Origin: Lactococcus allomyrinae
Lineage (GTDB): Bacteria; Bacillota; Bacilli; Lactobacillales; Streptococcaceae
Assembly (NCBI RefSeq): GCF_003627095.1
Contig: NZ_CP032627.1
Coordinates: 806,001-870,000, forward strand
DNA: 64,000 nt
Direction: 5' to 3'
Position numbers and translations under genes: made by a program. Position 1 is the stretch's first letter. Each line of letters begins with the position of its first letter. Shown piece by piece: positions 44,605 to 60,171 of the stretch. The notes beneath the pieces are model-generated. The model was not told the origin of the DNA. It was given only the letters and a program-made list of their open reading frames with translations, and ran no database searches.

Positions 44605-44672
44605 ATTTTGTTCTCCATAAATGAAAGATTTACAGAAAGACCGACCAAGCCTGTGGCTTCGCTAGTTGAGTG

Positions 44673-44701
44673 ATTTTATATTAACTTAATGAATTTTTCA
44701 A
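44673..44701 (-). promoter_or_regulatory. sigma-A promoter of guaC
   Basis: Minus strand TTGAAA (44701-44696), 17-base spacer, TAAAAT (44678-44673). The short leader contains a small AAGCC-ACA-GGCTT hairpin. Confidence 0.7.
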
Positions 44702-44840
44702 GCTCAAAAGTTATAAAAATAAAATCTCTGCCACTCAACTTTCCTTATTCATTTTACCTTAAACAATCGGTTTTTTCTATTTATTTTATTGTTTTCATTA
44801 TATATTGGCAAAAATAATTCGTCATTTCCGAACTTTTTAT

Positions 44841-44867
44841 AAAAAATACTGACAGAAAGCTGTCAGT
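44841..44867 (-). terminator. terminator of lit (CTGTCAG palindrome)
   Basis: ACTGACAG-cttt-CTGTCAGT stem followed by ATTTTTT on the minus strand, immediately after the stop codon at 44869. Confidence 0.85.
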
Positions 44868-44868
44868 G

Positions 44869-45534
44869 CTATTTTTTTCTGAAATTAAATCCTCGTCGAT
44901 AGATGATAAAGAATAGGAGTTCATAAACGAGAATGAAAATCAAAAAAGTGTGCATAAAAAATTGTTCTGGTAAAACATTGATAATCGGGTCAGTTGAAGG
45001 ATCAAATAACCAACTGTTATCACGAAATAGGACTTCGTGAAAAATGACAAAAAACTGGTCAAAGCCGATGAGCAGGGCAAATAATCCAGCAACAATAGGT
45101 AAGCCCATGACAATTCTCAAACCATTATGGAAAAAGAGTGAGAGATTTTCTTTCACAAAAATGACAAAAGCTGGAATCAGAACAATTGTCAAACTTAGCG
45201 TCAGCATAAACAACATTTTGACTTCCGCAAAATGCTCAAGACCACTCGCTGATGAAGGAAAATCGGGCATATGGAGCTGACCAATAAATGGATTGAGAAG
45301 GTAATTCATCAGCACAAGAAAATTATGCCACAAGCGCATAGCTGACATTTGTGCCAAATCAGCAAGGTGATACCATGACATTTCTAAGGCAAATAACGGA
45401 ATGGAGAGGATAATCGTTAATGTAACTGACAGGGCAATAATCCATAACACACTTAGCCCAAAAATAAATTTATCTCGCATATATTTCTTATATTTTCTTC
45501 TGATCATCTTGTCAGTATGCTGACAGAAGTTCAT
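44869..45534 (-). CDS. lit: lipoprotein intramolecular transacylase family protein (DUF1461/TIGR01906)
   Basis: Integral membrane protein of up to 221 aa with about five helices. Family-typical stretches are the extracellular loop around SAMRLWHNFLVLMNYLLNPF, GLEHFAEVKMLF with a conserved His and Lys, and FVIFHEVLFRDNSWLFDPSTD with its His. Lit enzymes move an acyl chain onto the N-terminal Cys of lipoproteins to give the lyso form. The start is uncertain: ATG at 45534 has AGAAG upstream, but a later ATG at 45480 (MRDKFIFGLS) is possible, and the extra N-terminus is encoded by a CTGTCAG repeat. Upstream nagD-like gene may be co-transcribed. Confidence 0.75.
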   Translation of the reverse strand: MNFCQHTDKMIRRKYKKYMRDKFIFGLSVLWIIALSVTLTIILSIPLFALEMSWYHLADLAQMSAMRLWHNFLVLMNYLLNPFIGQLHMPDFPSSASGLEHFAEVKMLFMLTLSLTIVLIPAFVIFVKENLSLFFHNGLRIVMGLPIVAGLFALLIGFDQFFVIFHEVLFRDNSWLFDPSTDPIINVLPEQFFMHTFLIFILVYELLFFIIYRRGFNFRKK

Positions 45535-45548
45535 TTTCTTCTAATAAT

Positions 45549-45570
45549 TTCTGTCAGTACACTGACAGAA
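45549..45570. repeat. CTGTCAG palindrome between nagD-like gene and lit
   Basis: TTCTGTCAGTACACTGACAGAA with a second, similar palindrome at about 45509-45528 inside the lit N-terminus. T tracts are short, so termination here would be weak. Confidence 0.6.
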
Positions 45571-45622
45571 GTTCATGATTATATTTAGAGCTTATCCTTA
45601 AACTGATGGAAACTCTTGCGGG

Positions 45623-46396
45623 TCAAACGTCCCATTCATCAAGATTTGAAACAACATAAGTTGGCGCAATTGGAAGTTCTGGCACTTCTTCTGGTTTAGT
45701 AAAACCTGTCGTAACAAGCAAACTATCAATACCGTTGTTAATCCCTGTACGAATGTCTGTCAAATAGTTATCACCAACCATCAGAATATCTGATTTTTCA
45801 AACCCTAATTTGCTGACTGCTTTTTCGGTAATGATTGCTTCTGGTTTTCCGATAATCGTTGCTTTGACACGTGTGGCAGCCTCAATCATCTTGATCAAAG
45901 CTCCTGCTCCAGGAGTCAAACCTCGCTCACTTGGCAAATTCAAGTCAGGATTTGTCCCGATAAATGTTGCTCCATTATGAATGGCAAGCGTCGCTAAAAC
46001 CAACATCTCATAGGTCAGATCTGTATCAAGCGCAACAACGACATAGGCAGGATTTTCACGTTCTTTTTTGTATCCCGCCTCATAGATTGCTTCTTTTAAA
46101 CCATCTTCACCAATGATATAAACCGTTTTTTCTAATCCCAAATCATTCATATAATCAACTGTTGCAAGACTTGCTGTATAAATACTTGAAAGAGCTGTAT
46201 CAATGTTAAACTTGTCATGCAGTCGTTTTTGAACAACTCGAGGTGTTTTTGTCGTGTTATTTGTCAACAGAAGATAGGGAATTCCCGCCGCTTGCAAACG
46301 ATGAATAAAATTTTCACCAGCAGGAATCCGTTCATTACCAAGATAAATTGTGCCATCAAGGTCAATCAAATAACCTTTATACTTTTTATTTGTCAT
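45623..46396 (-). CDS. HAD-superfamily phosphatase, NagD/AraL type
   Basis: 257 aa, class IIA HAD hydrolase (TIGR01457 type). The Asp nucleophile is in [32 protein letters not shown] and [25 protein letters not shown] complete the active site. It dephosphorylates sugar phosphates or nucleotides; the true substrate is unknown. It starts 20 bases after the thioesterase gene, so they are an operon. Confidence 0.92.
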
Positions 46397-46416
46397 TTTA
46401 ATTTCTTTCTCATTTT

Positions 46417-47169
46417 TTATTTACTGACAGAATTTTTGTCAGTAACTTCTGACCAATGAATCTCAATTTGAGTGCTTCCGTCATTAAAATTATGGTGACT
46501 TACTAATCCATCCCAACTCATCAGTGCTTGGATTTTCTCACCATAGAGTACCTCATGATTATATTTAATAAATAATTTTGTTGGCTGATGTGATTTGCGG
46601 AAATCAAAGTCAATCATATCAGCCGCCCAATCATAATATTTAGCATTATTGACATGACCATTCATATCAAGGGCGGAAAATCGTACAGGATAGACTGCCT
46701 GTTCGCATTGCTCAAAATGCTCTAGCTTGTTAAACTTATGAGGACGTAAAATTTTAGAAATCTTCTCCGAGTCATACGGAGCAACGATTTCGTCTAACAC
46801 CCGTTCAATTTTGCGTGAACTTTTACTCATCAAAACCCATGTCGAATGAATCTCAACCAGTTGATTACCTGCTTCATCTTTAAAATAAAAATTTCGATAG
46901 CAAAAAAACTTATTGTAACTTGTGGCTTCTGTTTCAATCATGATTTGCTCATTGAACTCTGGTAACCGTGTAATCTTGACTTCATATTCAATCACAGCCC
47001 AAAAAAGATTAAATCGTTCACTCACCCAAACGTCCGAACGTCCAAGCAGCGTTGATTGCTCACCAGAAATTTGTAAAGCTACAGCAAGAATACTTGACAT
47101 TCTCATTTTCTTAAAAGCATCACTTTCATAGAAAGGCACGCGGTAATTTTGTTGATATTTTAAACCCAT
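46417..47169 (-). CDS. acyl-ACP thioesterase
   Basis: About 250 aa from ATG 47169 (GAGG nine bases upstream), double hotdog fold. The N-terminal half has [20 protein letters not shown] and a catalytic-site stretch [19 protein letters not shown]; the C-terminal half has [22 protein letters not shown], the Asn/His signature of FatA-like thioesterases. Releases free fatty acids from ACP. First gene of the nagD-like operon. Confidence 0.92.
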
Positions 47170-47292
47170 TATTGATAACCTCATAAAGTATAGAGCACTA
47201 TTTTGCTCATACGTTGCAAATCATTATATCTTTTACAGCAAAATTAGCCTCAGTAGAACATGAAATGCAACCACATCTATTTTAACAAAAAA

Positions 47293-47319
47293 ATGAGTAA
47301 CTTTCATAAAGTCGCTCAT
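47293..47319 (-). terminator. comEB terminator
   Basis: Imperfect 12-bp stem (ATGAG..ACTTT/AAAGT..CTCAT) followed by seven Ts on the minus strand, about 20 bases after the stop. Confidence 0.75.
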
Positions 47320-47339
47320 CTTTTATGCATCCGCTACTT

Positions 47340-47780
47340 TCAAATTTGTTGACATTCAATTGACAAAGTGTCAAGCAAAAATTCTTCGTAAGGGTCTTTG
47401 GCATGATATTCTTCAATATACTTGATTTCCTTTACACCAGCCGCAACCACGAGTTTTAAACAGGCCAAACAGGGGAAAAGTGTAGTATATAAAATTGCTC
47501 CTTCAGGTGAAACACCATGCTTTGCTGCTTGTGCAATTGCATTTTGCTCCGCATGAACTGTTGCAACACAATGTCCATATTTATCTTCTGTGCAACCAAC
47601 ATCTGTGCAATGTGGCATCCCAGACACCGCACCATTGTAGCCTGTTGAAAGCAATTGTCCGCTCGGGCTCACCAAAAGCGCCCCGACTTGCGCATGAGTA
47701 CAGGTCGAGCGTTTAGCAACAACTTGCACAATTTCCTTAAAATACTCATCTTTACTTGGTCTAGTAAATTTTTCAGTCAT
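47340..47780 (-). CDS. comEB: dCMP deaminase (ComEB family)
   Basis: 146-aa zinc deaminase converting dCMP to dUMP for thymidylate supply. Zn/catalytic motifs are TVHAEQNAIAQAAK and TLFPCLACLKLV; the allosteric-site Cys-rich loop is GMPHCTDVGC. Monocistronic. The name comes from Bacillus com loci; a role in competence is not implied. Confidence 0.92.
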   Translation of the reverse strand: MTEKFTRPSKDEYFKEIVQVVAKRSTCTHAQVGALLVSPSGQLLSTGYNGAVSGMPHCTDVGCTEDKYGHCVATVHAEQNAIAQAAKHGVSPEGAILYTTLFPCLACLKLVVAAGVKEIKYIEEYHAKDPYEEFLLDTLSIECQQI

Positions 47781-47964
47781 GATTAATCATCCTTCAAGTT
47801 TTAGATTTATTATATCAAGATGTGCGCAACACCGTCAAGAAGCGTAGAGAAATAGAAAAATATGCTTCTACTCAGAGCAGGTTTCATTTTGCCTTTTCCC
47901 TCCAGCTTCTTGTGTTGCAAATTCAGTTATAACATAACTCAAGAAAAGCTGCAAATTGTCAGTA

Positions 47965-48918
47965 CTATTGTGCTACTGACAGAAACTCAAAAACATTCTC
48001 ACGCGTCAAATTTCCAAGAAATTGCTCATTTTCATCAAAAATTGCAATGCTGTCAGTACTGACAAGATGTTCATAAGCCACTGATAAATCTGTCAGCACT
48101 GACAGAGCAAGCTCTGTAGGTTGCTTAGTATTGACAAGACTGATTTTACTTAACACATCACGCAAAGTGTACTTTTGAGAAAAGTTCGCTGCGCTAAAGA
48201 ATGATTTGACAAACTCAGTCGCTGGATTGTTCTTGATGGCTTCGGGTGTATCGAGCTGGGCAATCGTACCGTCCGTGACCACAGCAATCCGTGTGCCAAC
48301 TTTTAACGCCTCGTTCATGTCGTGCGTCACAAAGACAATCGTTGTTCCAAGCTCATCATGAATGTCAAGAATCAAATCCTGCAATGCCGTCCTCGAAATC
48401 GGATCAAGCGCTGAGAACGGCTCGTCCATCAGAATCAAATCAGGCTCCGCTGCAATCGCACGCAAAATGCCAATCCGCTGCTGCTCACCACCAGAAAGCT
48501 CATGCGGATAACGCCCTCTATATTTATCCGCCTCCAACCCGACTTTGTTCAGCAAATAATCTGTCCGCTCATGGCGTTTTGCCTTATCCCAACCGCGTAA
48601 CTCTGGAATCAGCTCAATGTTTTGCTGCACCGTCATATTAGGAAATAATGCGATTTGTTGCAAAACATAACCAATCCTCAGACGCAAATTTTGTAAATCA
48701 TAATCTTTAATCCGCTTACCCGAAAAATAAATATCTCCATCGGTTGGTACAACCAGTGCGTTAATCATTTTTAGCGTGCTGGTCTTACCACCACCTGACG
48801 GTCCTACGAGGACAAAAATTTCACCATTCTCAATCTTAAAATCAAGCCCCTGCACGACTTTTTTGTCGCCATAAGAAAGCCCAACGCCTTTAAACTCAAT
48901 AATTGCTTCTGTCATCAT
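47965..48918 (-). CDS. egtV: ABC transporter ATPase, OpuCA/EgtV type
   Basis: 317 aa. Walker A VLVGPSGGGKTSTLKMI, signature HELSGGEQQRIGILRAI, Walker B LILMDEPFSALDP, then a C-terminal CBS-like region (residues 255-317) as in OpuCA. Commonly annotated as choline/betaine ATPase (choQ). The partner permease overlaps its start (ATGATG). Given the adjacent lyase/hydratase/DUF917 genes I propose ergothioneine uptake (EgtV), since EgtV and OpuCA cannot be told apart by motif. Its last codons form a CTGTCAG repeat. Confidence 0.6.
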   Translation of the reverse strand: MMTEAIIEFKGVGLSYGDKKVVQGLDFKIENGEIFVLVGPSGGGKTSTLKMINALVVPTDGDIYFSGKRIKDYDLQNLRLRIGYVLQQIALFPNMTVQQNIELIPELRGWDKAKRHERTDYLLNKVGLEADKYRGRYPHELSGGEQQRIGILRAIAAEPDLILMDEPFSALDPISRTALQDLILDIHDELGTTIVFVTHDMNEALKVGTRIAVVTDGTIAQLDTPEAIKNNPATEFVKSFFSAANFSQKYTLRDVLSKISLVNTKQPTELALSVLTDLSVAYEHLVSTDSIAIFDENEQFLGNLTRENVFEFLSVAQ

Positions 48919-50459
48919 TTCACCAATCCTTCCGATTTCAGAAATTGCGTGGCAACTTCTTGCGCCGTCTTGTGCTGAACATCGACCTGATAATTCATCG
49001 TTCTCATTTGTTCATCGGTCAATTTTCCGTTCAACTTATTTAAAATATTGACAATCTCTGGGTTTTTATCCGCAAAACTCGTTTTCATAAGTGGTGCTGC
49101 CTGATATTTTGGAAAGAGATGTTTGCTATCTGTCAGCACGGTCAAGCCATAGCGCTTAATTCCAGAATCCGTTGAATAGACATCAATAATGTCTGCTTTC
49201 CCAGAATTAATCGCAGGATAAGCAAGCGAATTATCCACCGTTGAAACCTTGCTAAAATCTAAGCCATAGGTTGATTTTAGACCAGCAAATCCATCACTTC
49301 GTGCCATAAATTCTGCATCAAAAGCGACTTTTGCCGTATCTTCAACCTTTGCTAAATCCGCAATCGTCTTAAGATGATATTTTTTGGCAAATGATGTTTT
49401 GACAGCAATCGCATAAGTATCTTGAAACTCTGACGGCTTGCTGTAAGTCATGTCAAACTGCTCTGACAACAACTTTTTACCATTTTCATAAGTTTCATTT
49501 GCTGACAGATTTTTGTCAGCAATTGATTTTGGCGTTTTGACCAAAGATTCAAGCACCGTTCCTGTAAATTCAGGATAAATATCAACTTTTCCGTCTTTTA
49601 AAGCACTAAATAAGAAAGTCGTGTTTCCCAAATTTTCTTTCAAAGTGACTTTAACATTAGGGTCATATTCCTTAATCAAGCCAGCGTAAATATTATCCAA
49701 AATATTAGGCTCTGTTCCTAATTTTCCAGAAATCACGATGGTTTCTTTTGACTTTGCAGAAGAATCAAATAGGTCTGACTGTGCCAAATTAACCCCGCCA
49801 ATTACCAAAGCAAGCAAGACTAAAATTCCAATCGCAACACGTGGACGACGCTTCGACAAATAACCTAAAAGACTTGAAAATACAATCGCCAAAAGCGCAG
49901 AGCCAAGCGCCCCAATCAAAACAAGATTATAATTATAGTTGGTCAGCCCAGACATGATAAAAGTTCCGAGACCCCCAGCACCAATCAAACCACCAAGTGT
50001 AGCAGTACCTATGATAAAGACGAGTGCTGTACGAATACCAGAAATAATCACAGGTAACGCCAGAGGCAGCTCAACACGAATCAAGCGCTGATAACGCCTC
50101 ATGCCAAAAGCATCTGCCGCCTCCAGAAGCGCTGGATCAATCTCCGCCAACCCGACATAAGTATTTTGAAAAATAGGCAGAAGCGCATAAACAATCAGCG
50201 CAATAATAGTTGGCACAACACCAATCCCCACAAAAGGAATCAAAAGTCCCAAAATAGCAAGTGAAGGAATAGTTTGAAAAACACCCGTCACCTGAAGCAA
50301 AATCCCTGCCGCACGTCGCCTATGTGCCACTAAAATCGCTAAGGGGATAGCAATAAGTACAGCAATCAATAAGGCAAGTAAAGACATTGACAAATGCTCA
50401 AAAATAGCCTGTAAGATCTCTCCTTTTTGCTGTGATACTGTTTGTAAAAATTGATTCAT
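48915..50459 (-). CDS. egtU: ABC permease fused to substrate-binding domain, OpuC/EgtU type
   Basis: 514 aa from ATG 50459 (AGGAG upstream). Residues 1-215 are a MetI-like permease with about six helices and the EAA loop ADAFGMRRYQRLIRVELPLAL; residues 250-514 are an OpuAC-type binding domain (ETIVISGKLGTEPNILDNIY ... VDIYPEFTGTVLESLVKTP). Fused permease-binder proteins of this kind include ChoS, OpuFB and the ergothioneine transporter EgtU of pneumococci. The surrounding genes favour a quaternary-amine thiol-histidine such as ergothioneine over choline, but ligand residues need modelling. Downstream of the lyase after a 260-base gap. Confidence 0.6.
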   Translation of the reverse strand: MNQFLQTVSQQKGEILQAIFEHLSMSLLALLIAVLIAIPLAILVAHRRRAAGILLQVTGVFQTIPSLAILGLLIPFVGIGVVPTIIALIVYALLPIFQNTYVGLAEIDPALLEAADAFGMRRYQRLIRVELPLALPVIISGIRTALVFIIGTATLGGLIGAGGLGTFIMSGLTNYNYNLVLIGALGSALLAIVFSSLLGYLSKRRPRVAIGILVLLALVIGGVNLAQSDLFDSSAKSKETIVISGKLGTEPNILDNIYAGLIKEYDPNVKVTLKENLGNTTFLFSALKDGKVDIYPEFTGTVLESLVKTPKSIADKNLSANETYENGKKLLSEQFDMTYSKPSEFQDTYAIAVKTSFAKKYHLKTIADLAKVEDTAKVAFDAEFMARSDGFAGLKSTYGLDFSKVSTVDNSLAYPAINSGKADIIDVYSTDSGIKRYGLTVLTDSKHLFPKYQAAPLMKTSFADKNPEIVNILNKLNGKLTDEQMRTMNYQVDVQHKTAQEVATQFLKSEGLVK

Positions 50460-50559
50460 AAATTCTCCTATCAATAAAATCAAGACCTATTCGATGAACT
50501 GCAATACTCCACCACACTATAAACACCAAGTGCAAAACGCGGTTTATAGAATATAAATC

Positions 50560-50588
50560 TAACATTTAAACGACACATTTAAATGTTA
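50560..50588. other. 11-bp inverted repeat in the lyase-permease gap
   Basis: TAACATTTAAA and TTTAAATGTTA separated by seven bases, midway between the lyase terminator-like hairpin and egtU. It is a possible operator or RNA stem. Confidence 0.4.
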
Positions 50589-50686
50589 AGCAGCACTAAT
50601 AAGTCAAAGAACCGACATACAGATTTCAAACCACTACTTTAATAAAATAAGGTATATTAAGTGTATGTTTTAAAATTAAAAATATC

Positions 50687-50707
50687 AAGAAAAAGCATCT
50701 TTTTCTT
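50687..50707 (-). terminator. hairpin after the lyase gene
   Basis: AAGAAAAAG-cat-CTTTTTCTT followed by GATATTTTTAATTTT, just after the lyase stop. A partial terminator would lower transporter expression relative to the enzymes. Confidence 0.6.
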
Positions 50708-50719
50708 TAAAATAATATC

Positions 50720-52240
50720 CTATAATTGCGCTGCGCCAAATGAAGCAGCAATACCCAAAGTATTTCCAATCAACTCAGAAGCAATTTTCTCAACCAATTC
50801 TGATAGATTATAATCTCGATCAAGAAATGGAACAAGTGTTCTAAATTTACTATAAAGCTGTTGACTTGCGGCACCAAGTCGTTTGACATGACGTAAATCA
50901 ATCGCTTGCGCTGCTGACAGCCCCTCAATCGCTAAAATATAATTAAAATAAGAAAGAATTTGTGCATTTTTTGACAAAATCAGAAGTAAATTTGTTGCAT
51001 AATCCTCAATCCCAGAAGAAATCGGATAAAAATTATTAATCGTTGTATTGGTTAAATCATTGATTTGTACTTCTAATCGCACAGCTGTTTTTTGCAAGGT
51101 TTGAAATCCCAGCATTTGTTCATTTGCTGCCAAAAATCGTGGCAAATCAGTAAAACTTGAATCCCCCAACTTGATGATTCTGAAAACACTCATTCGTGCA
51201 AGCTGTGACAGTGCAGTGTTTACCATTTCGAGAGCTAGTGCGACTGATGTCGTATCATAATTGCTCGTTGATAATATTTCCTCACGTTCCAAATCAACAT
51301 AAGGATTTTCATCAGAAACCGTCAAATTTGTCGAAACAATCGTTGACAAATAAGCCAAAGCATCATAAAGACTTGCCACAACACTAGGAAAATTTCTAAA
51401 AGAAAGTGGGTCTTGCATTGACTTACGCTGATGATTTTCAAGCAAATAAGAATCTGTCAAGTTTGTCAAAATTTTCTCAGCAGCAAGCCGATAACCACTT
51501 CCCTCAGGAGCCGTCTTACGATAATACAAAAATGGCGTAATATTTCCATCAACAGCTTCCAAAGTCAGCGAATAAATCAATTCCATATTTGATAAAAGCC
51601 GCCTCATCTCATCAATCGCAAAAATAGATAAAGCTTGCGAATAAGCGTTAGAAGATACAATAGATAAGCCATCTTTTACACCCAATACCACCGCTTTTAG
51701 GTCCTCTTTCTCAAAGACTTCTGCTGTTTTCAAAATCCTCCCTTGATAATAAACCTCGCCTTCTCCCATCAAAACAAGACCAAGAAAAGCCAGCGTTCCT
51801 AAATCTGCTTCTCCGATTGACGATGTTGCCTTCATCACAGGAGTGATATGACGATTAAGCAATTCCTTTAAAAGAAAGATGATTTCCTCGCCGACACCAG
51901 CATTGCCACGTAAAAACGAATGGAGCTTTATCAAGACAACAGCACGCGCTTGAACTTCTGGAACCAACTCGCCAATCGCCACTAAGTGAGAATAAATCAA
52001 ATTCCGATTGAAATTTTCAAAAGAATCTAAAGCGATGAGTTGATCTTTATTTTGCCCGACACCCGTGTTTAAGCCATAAATTCTTTCTGTTCCATTTGCT
52101 TTTTTAAGCACAATTTGCCGTGCTTTTCGAACATTTTGCATAGACTTTGAATCAAGTTCAATCACATAATCTTCGCGGGCAATTCTTAACACATCGACGA
52201 TTTGAAGGTCAAATCCTGTCAAAATAATTTTATGTGCCAT
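50720..52240 (-). CDS. HAL/PAL-superfamily lyase lacking the MIO motif (ergothionase-like)
   Basis: 506 aa with the fold motifs of histidine ammonia-lyase: IYGLNTGVGQNKDQ near residue 54, LIYSHLVAIGE near 81, VMKATSSIGEADLGTLAFLG near 136, and GEGEVYY. The self-processing Ala-Ser-Gly that forms the MIO electrophile reads Gly143-Glu144-Ala145, so classical histidine deamination is not expected. Ergothionase, which eliminates trimethylamine from ergothioneine by acid/base catalysis, is a MIO-free lyase and fits better. No hutI or hutG is present. Starts ~60 bases after the binding-protein gene. Confidence 0.72.
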   Translation of the reverse strand: MAHKIILTGFDLQIVDVLRIAREDYVIELDSKSMQNVRKARQIVLKKANGTERIYGLNTGVGQNKDQLIALDSFENFNRNLIYSHLVAIGELVPEVQARAVVLIKLHSFLRGNAGVGEEIIFLLKELLNRHITPVMKATSSIGEADLGTLAFLGLVLMGEGEVYYQGRILKTAEVFEKEDLKAVVLGVKDGLSIVSSNAYSQALSIFAIDEMRRLLSNMELIYSLTLEAVDGNITPFLYYRKTAPEGSGYRLAAEKILTNLTDSYLLENHQRKSMQDPLSFRNFPSVVASLYDALAYLSTIVSTNLTVSDENPYVDLEREEILSTSNYDTTSVALALEMVNTALSQLARMSVFRIIKLGDSSFTDLPRFLAANEQMLGFQTLQKTAVRLEVQINDLTNTTINNFYPISSGIEDYATNLLLILSKNAQILSYFNYILAIEGLSAAQAIDLRHVKRLGAASQQLYSKFRTLVPFLDRDYNLSELVEKIASELIGNTLGIAASFGAAQL

Positions 52241-52302
52241 AAAACTCCTTTCTTAGCCTATCATTTATGATAACTAATATCAGCCTCTTTAACCACTCCC
52301 CT

Positions 52303-53172
52303 TTAGTTTGCTGTCTTGAATTTCCAAGCTGGCAACAATTCTCCATTTGAATAATTCTTTTTTACCGCAGTAGCTACTTCAGGAGAATGAAGTGCTTTAA
52401 TCACATCTTCATAAGTTTTATTATGTTCATATTTTTTATTTGCAGCAACCAAGCTCACCCACTGCTTAGAATAATTTTTTAGTGGTTCAGAAAAAATAGC
52501 TTCTGATAGTGGAATTTTTGCAGTATCCGCAAAGTTTCTCGTGATTACTGCAGCATCTATAGAGCCAAGAGCATGTGCTGTCTGCGCCGCATCTAACTCC
52601 TTTATTTTCAGATGTCTTGGATTATCAGAAATATTTTGAATGGTCGCTAGCGCAGAATCCGATACATTCAACTTAATCAATCCAGCAACTTCCAAAAGAT
52701 GAAGGGCATGGCTTTCATTTGAAGTATCATTAGGTACAGCAATTGTTGCTCCATCTTGTAAATCAGAGACTGATTTAACTTTCTCAGAGAACAAATGCAA
52801 AGGTGTAATCCATAAATCTCCTATTGAGACCAATTTAGAATGATGTGCCTTATTCCAGTTATCCAAAAAAGCATAAATCTGAAAAGCATCTAAATCAATG
52901 CTTCCATTCGATAAAGCCACATTTGGCTGAGAATAATCAGTAAAAAATTTATATTTCAAACTGATTCCATATTTTTCTTTTGCCTGCTTTGTAACTACTT
53001 CCCATATGGCATCGTCTTTTTTCGTTCCTGCGATTCTCCCAATAATCACCACTTTTTGATGCGAACTTGCCGACACTTTTTTATTATGATTTTTCCAACT
53101 TAATCCCCCAATCAAACTAATCACAATTAGAAGTAAAAGAGCAAAAAATAAATTTCTTCTTCTTGGATTCAC
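52303..53172 (-). CDS. NlpA/MetQ-family substrate-binding protein
   Basis: 289 aa. N-terminal membrane anchor (RNLFFALLLLIVISLIGGLSW) without a lipobox Cys, then the MetQ fold (VVIIGRIAGTKKDDAIWEVV, LDAFQIYAFLDNWNKAH, IAVPNDTSNESHALHLLEVAGLI). It starts at GTG 53172 overlapping the DUF917 stop. No MetN/MetI genes are nearby; it may use a permease elsewhere. Substrate unknown, plausibly a thio- or S-methyl-imidazole compound from context. Confidence 0.8.
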   Translation of the reverse strand: MNPRRRNLFFALLLLIVISLIGGLSWKNHNKKVSASSHQKVVIIGRIAGTKKDDAIWEVVTKQAKEKYGISLKYKFFTDYSQPNVALSNGSIDLDAFQIYAFLDNWNKAHHSKLVSIGDLWITPLHLFSEKVKSVSDLQDGATIAVPNDTSNESHALHLLEVAGLIKLNVSDSALATIQNISDNPRHLKIKELDAAQTAHALGSIDAAVITRNFADTAKIPLSEAIFSEPLKNYSKQWVSLVAANKKYEHNKTYEDVIKALHSPEVATAVKKNYSNGELLPAWKFKTAN

Positions 53173-54296
53173 TATTCTTCTCCCCCAGTATTTTCATCAT
53201 TTGGAAATGAATATTTGTAAAGCTCAATCCCTAATGCTTTTTCTACATCTGGATATACTCCAGCGTCTTTTACACCAGTTGAAAGTTGAAAATGAGATTT
53301 ATCAATCTTGAATAACACTACTTCTTGTCCTTTTTCAATTTCATTAGTGGATAATGGGAAAGCATCTTCCGCACGAAAAATCGTTTGAACGTCAGGATAA
53401 GTAGAAATTCTTTCTCCGTTTTCATTTTCAATCGCCATGAACTCATTCTGCGCATAAACTGTGTACCGATGCCCATTATCACTGACAATTTGAATTTTCC
53501 CAATATCAAAGGCTTCAGTAGTATATGACATTTCTTTTGATACAACGCACCCCGTAGTAATCACCTCTCCTTGCGTTGCGTGAGCAATATTGTTAATAAC
53601 AGTTTTTGCACCTGTTCCTTCAGCCGCAAGAATACGATATCCTAGATTAATTGCCTTCGATAAGCCACCAATCACTGCATTTTCTTTAACATATTTCACA
53701 GGCAAAGGATGTCTCGCTGTCGCAATAAAGCCACCAGCTTGGTCAGAAGCTGCGCGCAATATCTTTGATGTCGTTTTTGAAGCTCCTTTGACTACCACTT
53801 CAACATACTTTCCTGTTTCATGCTTACCTCCAACTGCCGCCTGAGTTGTGATATAGTCTGCTCTAGAGTTTACCCCAATATCTCCCATTTCTCCAGTAGG
53901 ATGAGCTCGAATATCTCCCGTCACATCAACAATATATAAACCCAAAGCAGCAGCTGTTATCCATCCATTTGTTGATGAGGACTTCCCATTTTGTGGTGTC
54001 CACAAACCGACAATTTTTTCAGATATTTGTTCCTGAACTAACTGGACTGCTTTGATATAGTCCTTCCCTTGCATTTGCCAATCCGTAGTTCCAGCAGGTG
54101 CACCAATCGCCGTTTGAGTCAATAAAGTGGCATCATCAGGCAACTCATCAATCGAAATGAGATTAACATCTCCTAAAGCCAAAGCAGCATATCCCATCTT
54201 AAGTCCATGCTCATAAAACGCCCCACCACCAGAAGCAAAAACTGCGCCACCTTTTACCGCTGCCAATACATCTTTTTTCGTTAATTTTCTAACCAT
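53172..54296 (-). CDS. DUF917 protein, S-methyl thiohydantoin desulfurase family
   Basis: 374 aa. The N-terminal GGAVFASGGGAFYEHGLKMG, the middle TAIGAPAGTTDWQMQGKD, the D/H-rich stretch VDVTGDIRAHPTGEMGDIGV and the C-terminal GVKDAGVYPDVEKALGIELY are those of the DUF917 (S-Me-THD) family. That family includes a desulfurase acting on the thiohydantoin formed during ergothioneine breakdown. Its ATG overlaps the stop of the hydratase gene (TAATG) and its stop overlaps the next start (TAGTG), so the three are obligatorily coupled. Confidence 0.8.
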   Translation of the reverse strand: MVRKLTKKDVLAAVKGGAVFASGGGAFYEHGLKMGYAALALGDVNLISIDELPDDATLLTQTAIGAPAGTTDWQMQGKDYIKAVQLVQEQISEKIVGLWTPQNGKSSSTNGWITAAALGLYIVDVTGDIRAHPTGEMGDIGVNSRADYITTQAAVGGKHETGKYVEVVVKGASKTTSKILRAASDQAGGFIATARHPLPVKYVKENAVIGGLSKAINLGYRILAAEGTGAKTVINNIAHATQGEVITTGCVVSKEMSYTTEAFDIGKIQIVSDNGHRYTVYAQNEFMAIENENGERISTYPDVQTIFRAEDAFPLSTNEIEKGQEVVLFKIDKSHFQLSTGVKDAGVYPDVEKALGIELYKYSFPNDENTGGEE

Positions 54297-55930
54297 TAGA
54301 GTTCTACCCTCCGAATTCCCTTTTTCTTCACTTCATCTAATGCATTTTCATAGCCTGCGTCCGCATAACGCAGAACACCAAGACTCGTATCATTGTCCAA
54401 AGCCAACTTCAAACGTTCAGCCGCCTCTGATGTGCCATCTGCGACAATTGTTAATCCTGCGGACTGCATATAACCAGCGTAGCCACCACCTCCAGCATGA
54501 ATAGCAACCAAATCTGCTTTTGAACTACTTGCCACCATTGCATTGATTAACGGCCAGTCAGAAATTGCATCTGAGCCATCTTTGAGATGTTCAGTCATAA
54601 TATTAGGATGTGTCATCGCTCCAGCATCTAAGTGATCTCTCGTAAAGGCCACAGGTGCTTTTAATCTTCCTTCTGCGACAAGCTGATTGACCGCTAAAGC
54701 TAACTTCGTGCGCTCTCCATGCCCTAGCCAGCTGATTCTAGCAGGCAAGCCCTGTACGGGAACATATTTCCCAGCTAATTTTATCCAATTTGTCACGATT
54801 TCATTATCTGAGAAATTTTTGAGCAAATATTCATCAATCAACTCAATATCCTGTACCTCACCAGATAGAGCAATCCATCGGAACGGGCCGATTGCCCTTT
54901 CAAACAGTGGGCGTAAGAATGCTTCTGTAAAAATAGGAATCTCAAAGGCATTTTCTACACCATAAGCCTTAGCTTGAGTTCGGATATTATTTCCATTATC
55001 AAATACGATGGCTCCCTGCTCCTTAAAATCCAAAATCGCACGAACTTCTTTAGCAAGACTCTTACCGGCTTTATCAATCACTTCTTCTGGATTGGTTTTG
55101 CGTAATGCTGCAAGCTCAGACAGCCCAACATCCTCTGGGACATAACCATAGAGCAAATCATGTGCTGCCGTCTGGTCACTAACAATATCAGGGATAATGC
55201 CACGATTAAGCAGTTCAGGATAGATTGTTGCTGCATTAGCGATTAAGCCAATAGAAAGTGGCTTTTTAGTGCTTAATGCCTCATCAACCCAAGCCAAAGC
55301 TTCCTCCAAATCATACGTCTTTCTTTGTAAAAAGCCTGTCGCAATCCTCTTATCTGCCTTAGTCTCATCCACATCGACATCTAATATCACGGCGCCAGCC
55401 ATCACACCAGCCAAGGGCTGTGAACCCGACATTCCACCCAAACCTGCCGTTAGTATAAATCTCCCTGCAAGATCCCCCTCAAAATGTTCTCTTGCGATGG
55501 CTTGAAAGATTTCGTAAGTCCCCTGAATCACTCCCTGAGAGCCAATGTATTGCCAATCTCCTGCAGTCAATCCTCCCCACATCGTCAGATTTTGGTCATA
55601 GAGCTTATAAAATTCTTCACTGTTTGCCCAATGACCAACTAAATTACTGGATGCCATGATGACAAGTGGAGCATCTTTGTGAGTTTTTAGGAGACCAATC
55701 GGCTTGCCAGATTGAATAATCAGAGTTTCATCTTCTTCAATCTGCTTTAAAATATCTACAATCGCATGATAGCTTGGCCAATCACGCGCTGCCTTCCCGA
55801 TTGAGCCATAAACCACCAAATTTTCTGGGTCTTCCCCATTTTCAAGATTGTTTTCCAATAATCTCAGAAGCGCTTCTTGTCGCCACCCTTTTGCTCGGAG
55901 TTCATTTCCACGTTGTGCAGTAATTGTCAT
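54296..55930 (-). CDS. urocanase-family hydratase with altered active site (thiourocanate hydratase-like)
   Basis: 544 aa. NAD+ Rossmann motif FILTAGLGGMSGSQPLAGVM near residue 158 (canonical urocanases read GGMGGAQ). In the PROSITE urocanase signature FQGLPARICW, this protein reads VQGLPARISW: the signature Cys is Ser400. The C-terminal NAD-contact loop HHGGGVGMG is IHAGGGGYAG. These changes argue against ordinary urocanate and for a relative such as thiourocanate. First gene of the operon; a promoter is likely near 56033-56041. Confidence 0.8.
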   Translation of the reverse strand: MTITAQRGNELRAKGWRQEALLRLLENNLENGEDPENLVVYGSIGKAARDWPSYHAIVDILKQIEEDETLIIQSGKPIGLLKTHKDAPLVIMASSNLVGHWANSEEFYKLYDQNLTMWGGLTAGDWQYIGSQGVIQGTYEIFQAIAREHFEGDLAGRFILTAGLGGMSGSQPLAGVMAGAVILDVDVDETKADKRIATGFLQRKTYDLEEALAWVDEALSTKKPLSIGLIANAATIYPELLNRGIIPDIVSDQTAAHDLLYGYVPEDVGLSELAALRKTNPEEVIDKAGKSLAKEVRAILDFKEQGAIVFDNGNNIRTQAKAYGVENAFEIPIFTEAFLRPLFERAIGPFRWIALSGEVQDIELIDEYLLKNFSDNEIVTNWIKLAGKYVPVQGLPARISWLGHGERTKLALAVNQLVAEGRLKAPVAFTRDHLDAGAMTHPNIMTEHLKDGSDAISDWPLINAMVASSSKADLVAIHAGGGGYAGYMQSAGLTIVADGTSEAAERLKLALDNDTSLGVLRYADAGYENALDEVKKKGIRRVEL

Positions 55931-56032
55931 ATCTTTACCTGATTTCCATTAACTTAATTAGTGCTACTAACATTTCTGGCACAAAACATTCCCACTGATG
56001 AAAGTAATCACTTTAATTTTTATATATTCAAA

Positions 56033-56041
56033 ATTTTAACA
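56033..56041 (-). promoter_or_regulatory. extended -10 box upstream of the hydratase-lyase operon
   Basis: Minus strand TGTTAAAAT, about 100 bases before the first gene of the operon. No clear -35. Confidence 0.35.
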
Positions 56042-56109
56042 TGAAAAAAATGTCTAAGACATCAGATTTTTTGAAACTTGTGATAATTTTTAACTATTGA
56101 GAAAATAAA

Positions 56110-56136
56110 AAAAACAAGAAATCATTTCTTGTTTTT
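56110..56136 (-). terminator. lysozyme gene terminator overlapping its stop codon
   Basis: AAAAACAAGAAAT/ATTTCTTGTTTTT with a one-base loop, the stop codon at 56122 lying in the stem, and an A/T-rich tail. Confidence 0.8.
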
Positions 56137-56934
56137 AAAAAGTTTATTATAACTTTCCTGATTAAGCACCATGTTCAAATCAAGATTTCCCTTGTAACCA
56201 GGTAAACTTCCCTTATCAGTATATTGCTGTATACCATAATCTAAACTTGTTTCTGGCGATGCATCCCACACACCTGTATTACGTCCATAAGCTGCAATCC
56301 AAATTGCATCAAACTTGCCTACATTTATTTGGTTTGCTTTTAAAAACCAATCTTGAGCGTAGATTCCAATGTTTTTTGCCCCTTGCTTTTGCAATTCTGA
56401 ACGAAAGGCTTCAATTCCTTCATTCATATTTTTCATATTCGTAACTTCAACATCAAGCCAGTAATAGGTTGGATGATAAACACTTGCTCTTTGATAAAAA
56501 TCTTTCGCTTGCTTTTTCATCTCAGCTTCTGTTTTTCCTGTAACAAATGCATATACTGCCACAGGAATTCCTCGCTCTTGAAGTTGTTTAATATGGGTTT
56601 GGTATGCAGTATCTTCTCCGTGTTTATTTGCAGAGTTATCTGCCTGCCCATAGGAACCGTTAACACGAATAATTGCACCAATAATGTGTTGACTCAGTGT
56701 ATTATAATCAATTTCATTAGGAGGTTGCCAGCCTGATAAATCAACTACTGGTTTATTCAAATCTAGAATTTTTTCATTTAGAATATCGCTCATTACAATT
56801 TTAGGATCGGACAACTTGGAAATAGAAATAGGACGTATCCTGACTAAACCAAGTAACGCAATAACTCCAACCATGATTGCTAAGAAAAAAAATGCTCCTA
56901 ACGCTTTCAGTTTACGTCTCATTTTAGGTTTCAT
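56122..56934 (-). CDS. GH25 lysozyme, membrane-anchored
   Basis: 270 aa. N-terminal membrane segment (ALGAFFFLAIMVGVIALLGL), then a GH25 muramidase barrel from residue 60: KPVVDLSGWQPPNEIDYNTL, GAIIRVNGSYGQADNS and the catalytic Asp/Glu pair in YYWLDVEVTNMKNMN near residue 158. It cleaves MurNAc-GlcNAc bonds of the cell wall from the outer membrane face. Follows hemW after 35 bases. No cell-wall binding repeats. Confidence 0.9.
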   Translation of the reverse strand: MKPKMRRKLKALGAFFFLAIMVGVIALLGLVRIRPISISKLSDPKIVMSDILNEKILDLNKPVVDLSGWQPPNEIDYNTLSQHIIGAIIRVNGSYGQADNSANKHGEDTAYQTHIKQLQERGIPVAVYAFVTGKTEAEMKKQAKDFYQRASVYHPTYYWLDVEVTNMKNMNEGIEAFRSELQKQGAKNIGIYAQDWFLKANQINVGKFDAIWIAAYGRNTGVWDASPETSLDYGIQQYTDKGSLPGYKGNLDLNMVLNQESYNKLFKNKK

Positions 56935-56969
56935 TAACTATATTGTAACAAAAGTTTCATCAAATGTCA

Positions 56970-58103
56970 TCAAAACTCTCCAGATTCAAGAAGGAACGCC
57001 TCAAAAACATTGTTCCCTAATTCAAAACCTTTATCTGTCATACGAATTTGTTCATGGTCATCATAAAGAAGCCCTTGATTAATTAATGTTTGCACTTGTT
57101 TACCATAGAGTTCTTCAAAAGATAAAGAAAATTTTGATTCAAATTTCGTTACAGAAACACCTGTTTTCTTTCGTAAACCAAGGAACATTTCTTCTTCAAT
57201 CTTTGATTTCTTTGACAAAACTTCTTCACTAACTCTCTTATTAGTTGCCTCAAGATAATGGTGAACAGGTCCATGATTTTTGTAACGAATCCCCTCTAAA
57301 TATCCTGAAGCACCAGCACCAACACCATAATATTCAGCATTATCCCAATAAGTAAGATTATGCTGACTTTCAAAACCAGACTTTCCAAAATTAGACACTT
57401 CATAATGATTGTAGCCATTTTGCGCCAAGATATCCATGATATATTCATACATGTCGGCGTTTTTATCTTCATTTGGTAATCGCAAAAGTCCTCTACGCTG
57501 CCTATTCATAAATACCGTGTGATCTTCTAAGATTAAACTATAGAGTGCAACATGTGGTAAATTTAATGCAAGAAATTTTTCAACATCAGTTTTAACCATG
57601 TCCATTGTCTGATTTGGAAGCGCATAAATCAAATCAATTGTGATATTTTCAAAACCGGCATTTCTCAATTTTTTTATGGATTCATAAACTTGTGCTTCAG
57701 TATGAGTTCTTCCAATTTTTTTGAGTAGTTTATTATCAAAAGTTTGAACGCCCAACGAAATTCGATTAACTTTTGATTGAGCAAGAACCTCGATAATTTC
57801 CTCAGATAAATCACCCGGATTAGCTTCCACAGTAAACTCTTCTAAAACTTCAAGATTTAGATGCTCCGTAAGTTTTGAGAGAAGTTTATCTAACTGTTGT
57901 GCCGAAAGAACTGTTGGAGTTCCTCCACCAATATACAGTGTTTTTAATTCTTTGATATCATAAGCTTGATATTCTGCAATAAGTGCATCAATATAATCAT
58001 CAACAGGCTGTCCTTCCATCAACACTTTTGCGAAATCACAGTAATAACAAATATGTGAGCAAAATGGGATATGAACATAAGCGGCTAGAGGTTTTTCAGA
58101 CAT
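56970..58103 (-). CDS. hemW: heme chaperone HemW (radical SAM, HemN-like)
   Basis: 377 aa. Radical SAM Cys motif CSHICYYCDF near residue 15, then LKTLYIGGGTPTVLS, VEANPGDLSEE and the C-terminal HemN domain. The lactococcal protein was long called HemN, but it lacks coproporphyrinogen oxidase activity and binds heme, in keeping with a heme-trafficking role in a bacterium without heme synthesis. Eight-base overlap with the upstream membrane protein gene. Confidence 0.93.
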   Translation of the reverse strand: MSEKPLAAYVHIPFCSHICYYCDFAKVLMEGQPVDDYIDALIAEYQAYDIKELKTLYIGGGTPTVLSAQQLDKLLSKLTEHLNLEVLEEFTVEANPGDLSEEIIEVLAQSKVNRISLGVQTFDNKLLKKIGRTHTEAQVYESIKKLRNAGFENITIDLIYALPNQTMDMVKTDVEKFLALNLPHVALYSLILEDHTVFMNRQRRGLLRLPNEDKNADMYEYIMDILAQNGYNHYEVSNFGKSGFESQHNLTYWDNAEYYGVGAGASGYLEGIRYKNHGPVHHYLEATNKRVSEEVLSKKSKIEEEMFLGLRKKTGVSVTKFESKFSLSFEELYGKQVQTLINQGLLYDDHEQIRMTDKGFELGNNVFEAFLLESGEF

Positions 58104-58680
58104 TTACTTTCCCTTTCCAAATTTTCTTCCGTAAAATGATTAACGCAAGTATTCCGTTAATAATAACTAAATAAATTGGAAATGCCAAACTTGTAAAAGT
58201 CCAAATCGTCATCGCAAAAAATCCTGTCCCTGCATTAAATACTCCCGCAGCAAAGGGCTCCCATGTCTCTGTTTCAGGATAATGCCATGCTTTTATCGCT
58301 GTGGGAATCGCTGCCATTATATCTGACAAAATTGCAAAACAAATCGCAAGATTAGGATTACTCGTCACTCCCCATACTAATAATGCCAAAACTGACACAG
58401 CACCACACATAATGTCAAAACGTTCAATCGCCCAGTAAGATTTTCTATTAATAAAGGAACATATAAAAATTAATGCCGTTGTTGAGAAAGAAATCAAGAC
58501 AGGAAATTGTCCCCAAGTCCACCCTTTTGAAAGTGCAGCAAAAAAGCCGATTGCAGGGGCAATCGTCCATAAGAGCCAAGACACTTTATTAGGTCTTACA
58601 CGACCAGTAATAGTTGCCCAGGCATAAGGAATGTTAAAAACCAGCGATACCGCCGCTCCAATAAATATCAAAAATTGCAT
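58096..58680 (-). CDS. paralogous six/seven-helix membrane protein 1
   Basis: 194 aa, about seven hydrophobic segments. Conserved blocks shared with the 60258-60848 gene are GRVRPNKVSWLLWTIAP (residues 26-42), SYWAIERFDIMCG (80-92) and AILSDIMAAIPTAIKAWHYPETE (114-136). No established domain recognised; size and internal symmetry recall PnuC/SWEET-like carriers. It overlaps hemW, so it is co-transcribed with hemW and the lysozyme. Confidence 0.75.
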   Translation of the reverse strand: MQFLIFIGAAVSLVFNIPYAWATITGRVRPNKVSWLLWTIAPAIGFFAALSKGWTWGQFPVLISFSTTALIFICSFINRKSYWAIERFDIMCGAVSVLALLVWGVTSNPNLAICFAILSDIMAAIPTAIKAWHYPETETWEPFAAGVFNAGTGFFAMTIWTFTSLAFPIYLVIINGILALIILRKKIWKGKVNV

Positions 58681-58782
58681 AAGTTCATTATAACAGAAAA
58701 TCAGGTTTAAATGATTCTTTAAAAATTTAATAATACTGTAAACAGGTTTTAGATAGTGGGGGTTACTTTTTATTGAACACTA

Positions 58783-60171
58783 TTACTTTGTTATTTTGCT
58801 TAATTTTGAATGCTTATAGCCATATAGAAAATAGATAATAGTGATTATAACTAATAAAATAAGCAAGGTTAGCCAAGTTGTCCAGTGATATTGGATGATT
58901 AAAACTGAACTTATCAGAAAAGATAGGGCAGGGAGTATCGGAACAAAAGGAACCTTAAACTCCCCCTTATCAGGTGTTCCAAAATCACGACGTAACTTAA
59001 TAATTCCTAAAGAAAGCATCATCAAATAAATGAGAGTACTTAAATTTAGAAATTCTGATAGTTTACCGATTGGGAAAAGACCTGAACTAAGCATTGCTCC
59101 TATCCCCATTAGTAAAGTCGCATTTTGGGGAACTTTATATTTTCCAGATATCTTACTTAAACGCTTTGGTAAAAGCCCATCCCGACTAATACTATAGATT
59201 ATCCGTACCAAAGCATACGCCATAGAAATTCCTACAGTAATCAAGGTAAGCATAACAACAACAGAGATAAGATTTGCCACCCATGTTAACCCCACCGAGC
59301 GCAAAGCAAACGCTAAGACATCTGGAACATCTAACTTAGTGTAATTTATCATCCCCGTCAACACTACTGTGACTAAAATATATAAAGTTGCTGTAACAAA
59401 TAAAGCACCCAATATTCCTTGAGGCATCGTCTTTTTCGGATATCGTGCTTCATCGGCTGAGGCGGATACTGTTTCAAAACCGAGAAATGCCATAAACATT
59501 AAAGCTGCACCTGCTGTTACACCATTACCACTAAGAAGATCTAACCAACCAAAAGGTGCAAAATTATTCCAATTATCCAGATTCAAATGGAAAACTCCAA
59601 TGACAATAAAAACAATCAACGCAGTCAATTTTAAAATCACTAGAATATTATTGAAACGCAACATCGCTCTAGCACTTAAAAATCCTAAAGCTGTTATTAT
59701 TGCAATGACCAACATTGGAATCAAATCAATTGAAAAATGCTGACTTGACCCTAACGGTCCATTAAAAACTGTCGGTAATTTCAAACCAAACAAGCTTTTA
59801 ATATATCCTCCCCGTCCACTTGCTGTAATTGAAATAGCTGTGAAAAATTCTCCAATTAATAAACACCCTGCAATCCAAGCAGGAAATTCTCCAAACACAA
59901 CATAAAGATAGCCGTACGGTCCACCTTGAGTTGGAATTCGAGATGAGAATTCTGAGAAAATCAAGGCAGATAATGCTACTGCAATTGCTGCAATAACAAT
60001 CGAAATCATCAAAGCAGGTCCTGCAACTTTAGCAATGGTAGGACCTACTATGGTAAAAATACCCGTCCCTACCATACTTCCGAGTCCTAATAGAACTAAG
60101 TCCATGCTGTTCAAACTACGTTCAAGTTCGGTTTTTTCTAGCCCAATTTTCTTTTTTCTGAATAAATCCAT
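58783..60171 (-). CDS. amino acid permease (APC superfamily)
   Basis: 462 aa, 12 helices. Helix 1 LVLLGLGSMVGTGIFTIVGP and the basic N-terminus (MDLFRKKKIGLEK) match cationic amino acid transporters of the YfnA/CAT type; GFETVSASADEARYPKKTMPQG follows near residue 240. Substrate not fixed. It lies between the two paralogous membrane protein genes, without a strong terminator on either side. Confidence 0.88.
   Translation of the reverse strand: MDLFRKKKIGLEKTELERSLNSMDLVLLGLGSMVGTGIFTIVGPTIAKVAGPALMISIVIAAIAVALSALIFSEFSSRIPTQGGPYGYLYVVFGEFPAWIAGCLLIGEFFTAISITASGRGGYIKSLFGLKLPTVFNGPLGSSQHFSIDLIPMLVIAIITALGFLSARAMLRFNNILVILKLTALIVFIVIGVFHLNLDNWNNFAPFGWLDLLSGNGVTAGAALMFMAFLGFETVSASADEARYPKKTMPQGILGALFVTATLYILVTVVLTGMINYTKLDVPDVLAFALRSVGLTWVANLISVVVMLTLITVGISMAYALVRIIYSISRDGLLPKRLSKISGKYKVPQNATLLMGIGAMLSSGLFPIGKLSEFLNLSTLIYLMMLSLGIIKLRRDFGTPDKGEFKVPFVPILPALSFLISSVLIIQYHWTTWLTLLILLVIITIIYFLYGYKHSKLSKITK

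Follow-up and report, generated by a model that had tools for sequence, protein, structure and literature searches.

A predicted ergothioneine uptake and breakdown cluster in Lactococcus allomyrinae that appears to stop at sulfur removal

Ergothioneine is reportedly catabolized in five steps (a pathway said to go back to Beliaeva et al. 2021), carried out by ergothionase, thiourocanate hydratase, thiohydantoin desulfurase, ErtD and ErtE. ErtD denotes the hydantoin-5-propionate amidohydrolase (NCBIfam models NF058538 and NF058539), and ErtE the N-carbamyl-L-glutamate amidohydrolase (NF058540). The present analysis concerns a run of six genes at positions 47965–55930 of a 64,000-nucleotide stretch of the Lactococcus allomyrinae genome (contig NZ_CP032627.1, positions 806,001 to 870,000; hereafter the window). 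Comparison of the gene products with family models and solved structures indicates that the cluster very probably serves ergothioneine uptake and a three-step breakdown. A sequence-only reading of the window had proposed ergothioneine uptake and degradation rather than histidine or choline metabolism, and this is borne out by the family models and solved relatives as well as by the trees and signature residues. Like the five-step pathway, the window has the first three enzymes in a cluster with uptake genes adjoining. It differs in the addition of a MetQ-type protein and in the last two steps: the earlier statement that all roles are represented does not hold, since no ErtD or ErtE homologue was found with the models searched in 18 genomes of the genus or in six streptococcal clusters (the window, its sister genome G011, L. 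hircilactis, L. nasutitermitis, a metagenome-assembled genome (MAG) and Pseudolactococcus insecticola). The L. hircilactis cluster also departs from the five-step pathway by having an O-acetylhomoserine sulfhydrylase gene inside.

According to the accessible part of a 2026 paper (PMC13405746), firm evidence of ergothionase exists for few organisms, and a BLAST search with a Burkholderia sequence led its authors to conclude that the enzyme is restricted to few genera. That part of the paper warns that divergent ergothionase homologues may be missed, cites the ergothioneine-splitting gut bacterium C. symbiosum and a thiourocanate desulfhydrase, and leaves Lactococcus unmentioned. By its sequence, the window lyase looks like such a divergent homologue. 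Among the literature matches listed, judged by title and the start of the abstract and with subscription papers largely outside the search, none dealt with Lactococcus or Pseudolactococcus breaking down ergothioneine. In the literature found, lactococci figure only as carriers of the EgtU-type transporter, L. lactis being named among them in the accessible sections of PMC9732360. Equivalog models for two of the enzymes exist in NCBIfam, so the chemistry itself cannot be called new. As far as the searches tell, what is added here is the occurrence in this genus, the truncated pathway and its ties to sulfur assimilation.

The six open reading frames were confirmed, all on the minus strand, with the coordinates, transcription order and one-base overlaps of the first three genes that the sequence-only reading had given. 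In order of transcription, with the upstream region last, the features are as follows.

54296..55930, minus strand: putative thiourocanate hydratase (urocanase family), 544 residues; NF058530, 7ned, tree
53172..54296, minus strand: putative thiohydantoin desulfurase (DUF917/S-Me-THD family), 374 residues; NF058529, PF06032, PF20906
52303..53172, minus strand: NlpA/MetQ-type substrate-binding protein, accessory, 289 residues; PF03180
50720..52240, minus strand: MIO-less aromatic amino acid lyase family protein, ergothionase-type, 506 residues; 6s7j, no Ala-Ser-Gly triad, trees (MIO, 4-methylideneimidazole-5-one)
48915..50459, minus strand: EgtU-like fused permease and substrate-binding domain, start moved from TTG 50483; match to 7txl
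47965..48918, minus strand: EgtV-like ATP-binding cassette transporter ATPase, 317 residues; PF00005, TIGR01186 just below cut-off
55931..56121, minus strand: intergenic region 5′ of the cluster, with the block TAAAAATTATCACAA..TTCAAAAAA..TGATGTCTT and an extended -10-like element TGTTAAAAT

The hydratase and desulfurase genes overlap by one base at 54296, as do the desulfurase and NlpA-type genes at 53172, and the permease-binder and ATPase genes share four bases. The permease-binder frame opens with TTG 50483, and ATG 50459, preceded by AGGAG, is the better start; the gene is probably 48915–50459. About 260 bases (50460–50719) separate the lyase from the transporter genes, so the six genes need not form one transcript. 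The gene run is not a chance arrangement, because the other five streptococcal genomes examined all have the three enzyme genes clustered as well.

In the proposed scheme, EgtUV would import ergothioneine, and the MIO-less lyase would act as an ergothionase, eliminating trimethylamine to give thiourocanate. The urocanase-like hydratase would convert thiourocanate to thiohydantoin propionate, from which the DUF917 enzyme would take off the sulfur as sulfide, leaving hydantoin-5-propionate. The sulfide would be caught by cysteine synthase in the window genome, and by the cluster-encoded O-acetylhomoserine sulfhydrylase in L. hircilactis. Here we infer the substrate, the products, the transport specificity, the sulfur purpose and the export of the leftovers.

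The closest solved relative of the lyase is the ergothionase of Treponema denticola, 6s7j (332 bits; next chain 182). The two proteins, compared here by sequence, align almost end to end with 38% identity over 484 positions. Both are MIO-less. The MIO-forming Ala-Ser-Gly is missing from the window lyase, which reads SSIGEA-DLG, one residue shorter, against GSLGASGDLA in all 30 HutH rows. These rows are the 30 best-scoring Bacilli loci of a scan in which 62 of 121 genomes were above the HutH cut-off. On the hutH equivalog model the lyase scores 276 bits, with a cut-off of 539. Nine positions are invariant in the 14 ergothionase-type rows, and invariant but different in the 30 HutH rows. The window residues at these positions are Val61, Asn78, Ile194, Val195, Ser196, Asn198, Leu279, Lys384 and Asn417, and 6s7j carries the same group-specific residues. 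Leu279 and Ser196 appear to match Tyr280 and Asn195 of Pseudomonas HutH, which we take to be catalytic.

The trees agree in placing the window lyase with 6s7j. A quick tree of 53 rows, which gave long-branch warnings and took in 14 of the 30 HutH loci (16 were left out), has 21 MIO-less rows on one side with a Shimodaira–Hasegawa-like likelihood ratio (SH-aLRT) support of 100. A 33-row tree with eight more Bacilli lyases puts the window and 6s7j in a side of 22 rows (100/100). A 28-row tree, to which two further references were added (one as the outgroup), unites all 18 MIO-less rows (90/86, an unstarred branch), and within these an inner group of 15 rows, including the window and 6s7j, is supported at 100/100. 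Trees of the lyase and of the hydratase were the check that the sequence-only reading had proposed, and both enzymes fall outside the MIO-bearing HutH and HutU clades.

Other MIO-less lyases were seen along the way. Three Bacilli ergothioneine clusters (L241, L243 and L245) have a distinct deep-branching MIO-less lyase (GSLGVGDL) replacing the usual ergothionase, and its tree position changes with the choice of rows. Loci of Bordetella (L042, L045, L050) and Achromobacter (L043, L044, L046, L048, L049) have MIO-less lyases on the ergothionase side, with no desulfurase match in the locus; the hydratase next to it in Bordetella falls on the side of HutU. At a guess, the substrate of these lyases may be a different betaine of histidine, for example hercynine.

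On the thiourocanate hydratase model NF058530 the window hydratase reaches 980 bits, above the cut-off of 930, and on the S-methyl thiourocanate hydratase model NF058531 it reaches 765 bits, below the cut-off of 880. It also passes the hutU model TIGR01228 (714 vs 375), a model that does not tell thiourocanate hydratase from HutU. Its best PDB chain is 7ned with 849 bits, the runner-up having 618. In a tree of 32 rows, the window hydratase lies inside a ten-row group with 7ned, separate from HutU (100/99). The chain 8q9u, which we take to be the S-methyl enzyme, adjoins this group from outside on a long branch.

The desulfurase, with domains PF06032 and PF20906, belongs to the DUF917 family as the sequence-only reading had it, and the S-methyl type named there is not supported. 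It passes the thiohydantoin desulfurase model NF058529 (560 bits, cut-off 440) and misses the S-methyl thiohydantoin desulfurase model NF058532 (270 bits, cut-off 450).

The transporter resembles EgtUV of Streptococcus pneumoniae in being a fused permease-binder with an ATPase. The binding domain matches the pneumococcal EgtUC 7txl with 257 bits. The available sections of PMC9732360 (section 8) give 14 pocket positions for EgtUC, of which ten are identical here: Lys242, Gly244, Thr275, Phe293, Thr296, Tyr341, Glu375, Arg379, Tyr419 and Tyr443. The window differs by I243L, T274N, Y337F and N339D, as well as by the linkage to degradative genes; Thr274 is excepted from the strong conservation of the pocket in the same part of that paper. 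The reading as a plain choline transporter was considered and not retained. The ATPase (PF00005) scores 315 bits on the betaine/proline/choline family model TIGR01186, just below its cut-off of 326.6. The sequence-only reading was thus right about an EgtUV-like transporter. EgtU is not peculiar to the cluster, since an EgtU-like gene occurs in all 18 genus genomes. In four of them (G000, G005, G011 and G015) the cluster copy is the only EgtU-like match at E up to 1e-30. Phe337 is found in 18 and Asp339 in 16 of the 18 genomes; these residues were considered as a hallmark of the degradative cluster and rejected, both changes being genus-wide. The fused permease-binder of the window contrasts with separate permease and binding-protein genes in seven of eight other Bacilli clusters.

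The NlpA-type binding protein (PF03180, 4e-77) is present as described earlier, but not as a core member. It has two MetQ-type paralogues elsewhere in the window genome, with 51% and 46% identity, which are followed by a gene for a MetN-like ATPase (331 bits, below the cut-off of 500). We regard the gene as accessory because, of the six streptococcal clusters, just the two of the window and L. hircilactis have it; in the sister genome G011 the cluster is flanked as in the window and has no MetQ-type gene.

The last two enzymes of the five-step pathway were sought in the 18 genus genomes. The ErtD model NF058538, the carbamoylase model TIGR01879 and the D-hydantoinase model TIGR02033 have no match above cut-off in any of them (NF058539 and the ErtE model NF058540 were not run genome-wide). 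The best carbamoylase score in the genus is 48 bits, and four ErtE proteins score 392–408 bits on the same model. No ErtD homologue was seen in the six streptococcal clusters, matches of at least 100 bits being considered in the window. For eight clusters of other Bacilli, tblastn within 15–19 kb finds an ErtD homologue in five (L240, L241, L243, L244 and L245) and none in the fetched loci L242, L246 and L247; ErtE passes its cut-off in all four Bacilli loci scanned. The one Bacilli ErtD homologue that was scanned matches the ErtD models best, below their cut-offs (536 vs 650 and 488 vs 600), and the A. pestifer ErtD passes (698 vs 600). One ErtD homologue stands at the edge of a Sporolactobacillus locus. 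In 17 of the 18 genus genomes (all but G014), cluster-free ones included, one amidohydrolase reaches 129–145 bits on the ErtD model; it is most likely a dihydroorotase. At these cut-offs, the lactococcal version of the pathway looks truncated, with ergothioneine going in and trimethylamine, sulfide and hydantoin-5-propionate coming out.

If the pathway ends there, the gain to the cell would most likely be sulfur, since neither the cluster nor the genome yielded a homologue of the hydrolases for the two steps onward to glutamate. The fuller proposal is that, in certain lactococci and a pseudolactococcus, trimethylamine and hydantoin-5-propionate are discarded, that the sulfide goes to cysteine or homocysteine synthesis, and that the cluster belongs to the methionine/cysteine network and has moved between sites. 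We hold this tentatively, at somewhat under an even chance. It draws on the three steps present ending at sulfur removal, and the O-acetylhomoserine sulfhydrylase, the MetQ paralogue and a CmbR-like box in P. insecticola fit it. The sulfhydrylase gene lies between the hydratase and desulfurase genes of L. hircilactis (630 bits, cut-off 495); this enzyme is above cut-off in five of the 18 genus genomes, the window's not among them. In the window genome, a cystathionine gamma-synthase gene precedes a cysteine synthase gene, cysK (394 vs 351). Genes for a MetQ-type protein and an ATPase are also located near the Sporolactobacillus cluster.

Regulation by CmbR was examined with a matrix of 12 training sites from the metC and plp promoters of the genus genomes. 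We take metC and plp to be CmbR targets and TWAAAAATTNNTA to be the box consensus, with which the sites were chosen. P. insecticola has a tandem CmbR-like box before the hydratase gene. Its promoter scores 21.5, the next one -3.3, and the site itself scores 20.5, the best of 42,812 positions, with -1.8 for the next. At three pseudocounts, the cluster promoter ranks 1/1/1 of 12 in P. insecticola, 3/1/1 of 16 in G011, 1/1/1 of 13 in the MAG and 2/2/2 of 18 in L. nasutitermitis. A block upstream of the window cluster (56020–56100) is conserved in G011 and L. hircilactis, and partly in the MAG. On the matrix the conserved upstream block of the window stands 360th of 127,926 positions. One-mismatch boxes occur upstream of the clusters of the window, G011 and L. 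hircilactis. No Rfam family was found at 44000–60000 at the gathering threshold. CmbR sites of L. lactis are described, in the accessible part of PMC5131005, as paired 13-base boxes located 46–53 bases before the transcription start.

The distribution of the cluster is patchy. The desulfurase is above cut-off in five of the 18 genus genomes, the window's included. Among 395 sampled genomes of the order the window's own is the only one to have it, and among 398 sampled Bacilli nine do, again with the window's. The named loci are in L. hircilactis, L. nasutitermitis, the MAG and L. insecticola (now P. insecticola). All six streptococcal genomes have the three enzyme genes in a cluster, and in five of the six, the window included, the transporter genes stand beside them. 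The cluster occupies four sites among the five genus genomes that carry it. Genes for GH25 and deoxycytidine monophosphate (dCMP) deaminase flank it in the window. The same two genes are adjacent, about 85–315 bases apart, in G016, G001, G007, G009, G015 and G017; in G009 and G015 the cluster is located elsewhere. They are about 840 bases apart in G012, and for the remaining nine genomes of the 18 the fetched flank does not include the dCMP deaminase gene. The cluster of G005 has yet other flanks. Judged by these comparisons, the cluster is inserted at the window site. Its G+C content is 39.8%, against 36.0% for the window, at the top of the range for 8-kb stretches of the window. No convincing direct repeats were found at its ends among the 20 largest of 47 repeat families. 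Between G011 and the window, the hydratase, lyase and permease match at 95–98%, the ATPase at 93% and the desulfurase at 86%; the last value suggests a local exchange around the desulfurase and MetQ-type genes.

In L. nasutitermitis (L073 7784–12250) the hydratase gene is inverted, divergent from the desulfurase-lyase pair, and a 53% identical EgtU-like gene lies about 9 kb from the cluster on the same contig. On contig C3 of G000 (L228, 8.3 kb), a stretch shares 97–98% identity with restriction-modification genes of the Bsp6I type from plasmids of Lactococcus and Enterococcus. L246, L247 and L040 each have two DUF427-type genes by or near the hydratase-desulfurase pair. L247 also encodes an NtaA/DmoA-type flavin mononucleotide-dependent monooxygenase (TIGR03860, 533 bits), and L246 has a similar frame. 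These genes possibly serve a further ergothioneine or sulfur step.

Several observations weigh against an ergothioneine pathway of the kind proposed. In NCBIfam the lyase matches no model named for ergothionase; the best-scoring ones are HutH models, far under their cut-offs. In the 33-row tree, the three added MIO-less Bacilli lyases of L241, L243 and L245 fall on the HutH side; a second independent loss of MIO in these proteins was considered and dropped, as the 28-row tree unites the 18 MIO-less rows. The hydratase frame of L. hircilactis (L075 15679–17310) stops about 40 codons early while the alignment runs on beyond, which is either decay or a sequencing error. The enzymes of L. nasutitermitis have no EgtUV adjoining. 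Phe337 and Asp339, which are Tyr and Asn in the pneumococcal pocket, could mean a broader ligand range of EgtU, and an unrecognised hydantoinase could exist. The CmbR-like site of P. insecticola scores just under the lowest training site (22.7), and the promoters of the window (rank 20, 15 and 14 of 57) and L. hircilactis (13, 14 and 12 of 17) do not stand out as CmbR-type. CmbR control of the window cluster is not claimed given these ranks and that of the upstream block, promising as the one-mismatch box looked.

Complete catabolism would require unrecognised hydrolases that convert ergothioneine fully into glutamate and ammonia, from which the cell would gain nitrogen or carbon. The other Bacilli with the same first enzymes lend it some weight, since an ErtD homologue (five of eight) or ErtE (four of four scanned) adjoins them, and so does the widespread amidohydrolase of the genus. 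That amidohydrolase is, however, also present in cluster-free genomes, and its score is far from the ErtD cut-off of 600 and from the 488 bits of a real homologue below cut-off; the best carbamoylase score in the genus is likewise far from those of the ErtE proteins. We consider complete catabolism unlikely. A further account has EgtUV import ergothioneine for redox protection, with enzymes that merely clear damaged or excess ergothioneine. The EgtU-like genes in all 18 genomes, 13 of them without the desulfurase, imply another use for uptake in the genus. In four of the five desulfurase-bearing genomes, however, the sole EgtU-like gene sits with the degradative genes, and three steps ending in desulfuration would exceed the needs of clearance. 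As an account of this cluster, redox protection is quite unlikely.

The substrate might also be S-methyl-ergothioneine or some other imidazole of the thio or methyl type. S-methyl enzymes do occur in the DUF917 and urocanase families, and the EgtU pocket differs at two cage positions. Yet the hydratase and desulfurase pass the ergothioneine-type cut-offs and miss the S-methyl ones, and 8q9u, presumably the S-methyl enzyme, stays outside the group of the window and 7ned; this substrate is very improbable. Ordinary histidine utilization by HutH and HutU, beside a choline or betaine transporter, deserves next to no credence. The lyase and hydratase families are shared with the Hut system, and the hutU model is passed. 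The window lyase nevertheless has no MIO triad, scores far below the hutH cut-off and differs at the nine group-specific residues, both enzymes form clades separate from Hut, and the cluster includes a desulfurase without a known role in histidine breakdown. Ergothioneine uptake with a three-step breakdown accommodates the family assignments, the missing triad, the lack of an ErtD- or carbamoylase-like gene above the cut-offs used, the synteny and the insertion, all of which the sequence establishes.

Ergothioneine, a compound of mushrooms and other fungi, is valued as a dietary antioxidant. If the proposed pathway is true, some lactococci would make less of it available and give off trimethylamine and sulfide, which would be relevant to food flavour and gut chemistry. 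With a pathway that appears truncated, it can be tested directly whether bacteria degrade ergothioneine for sulfur or for nitrogen.

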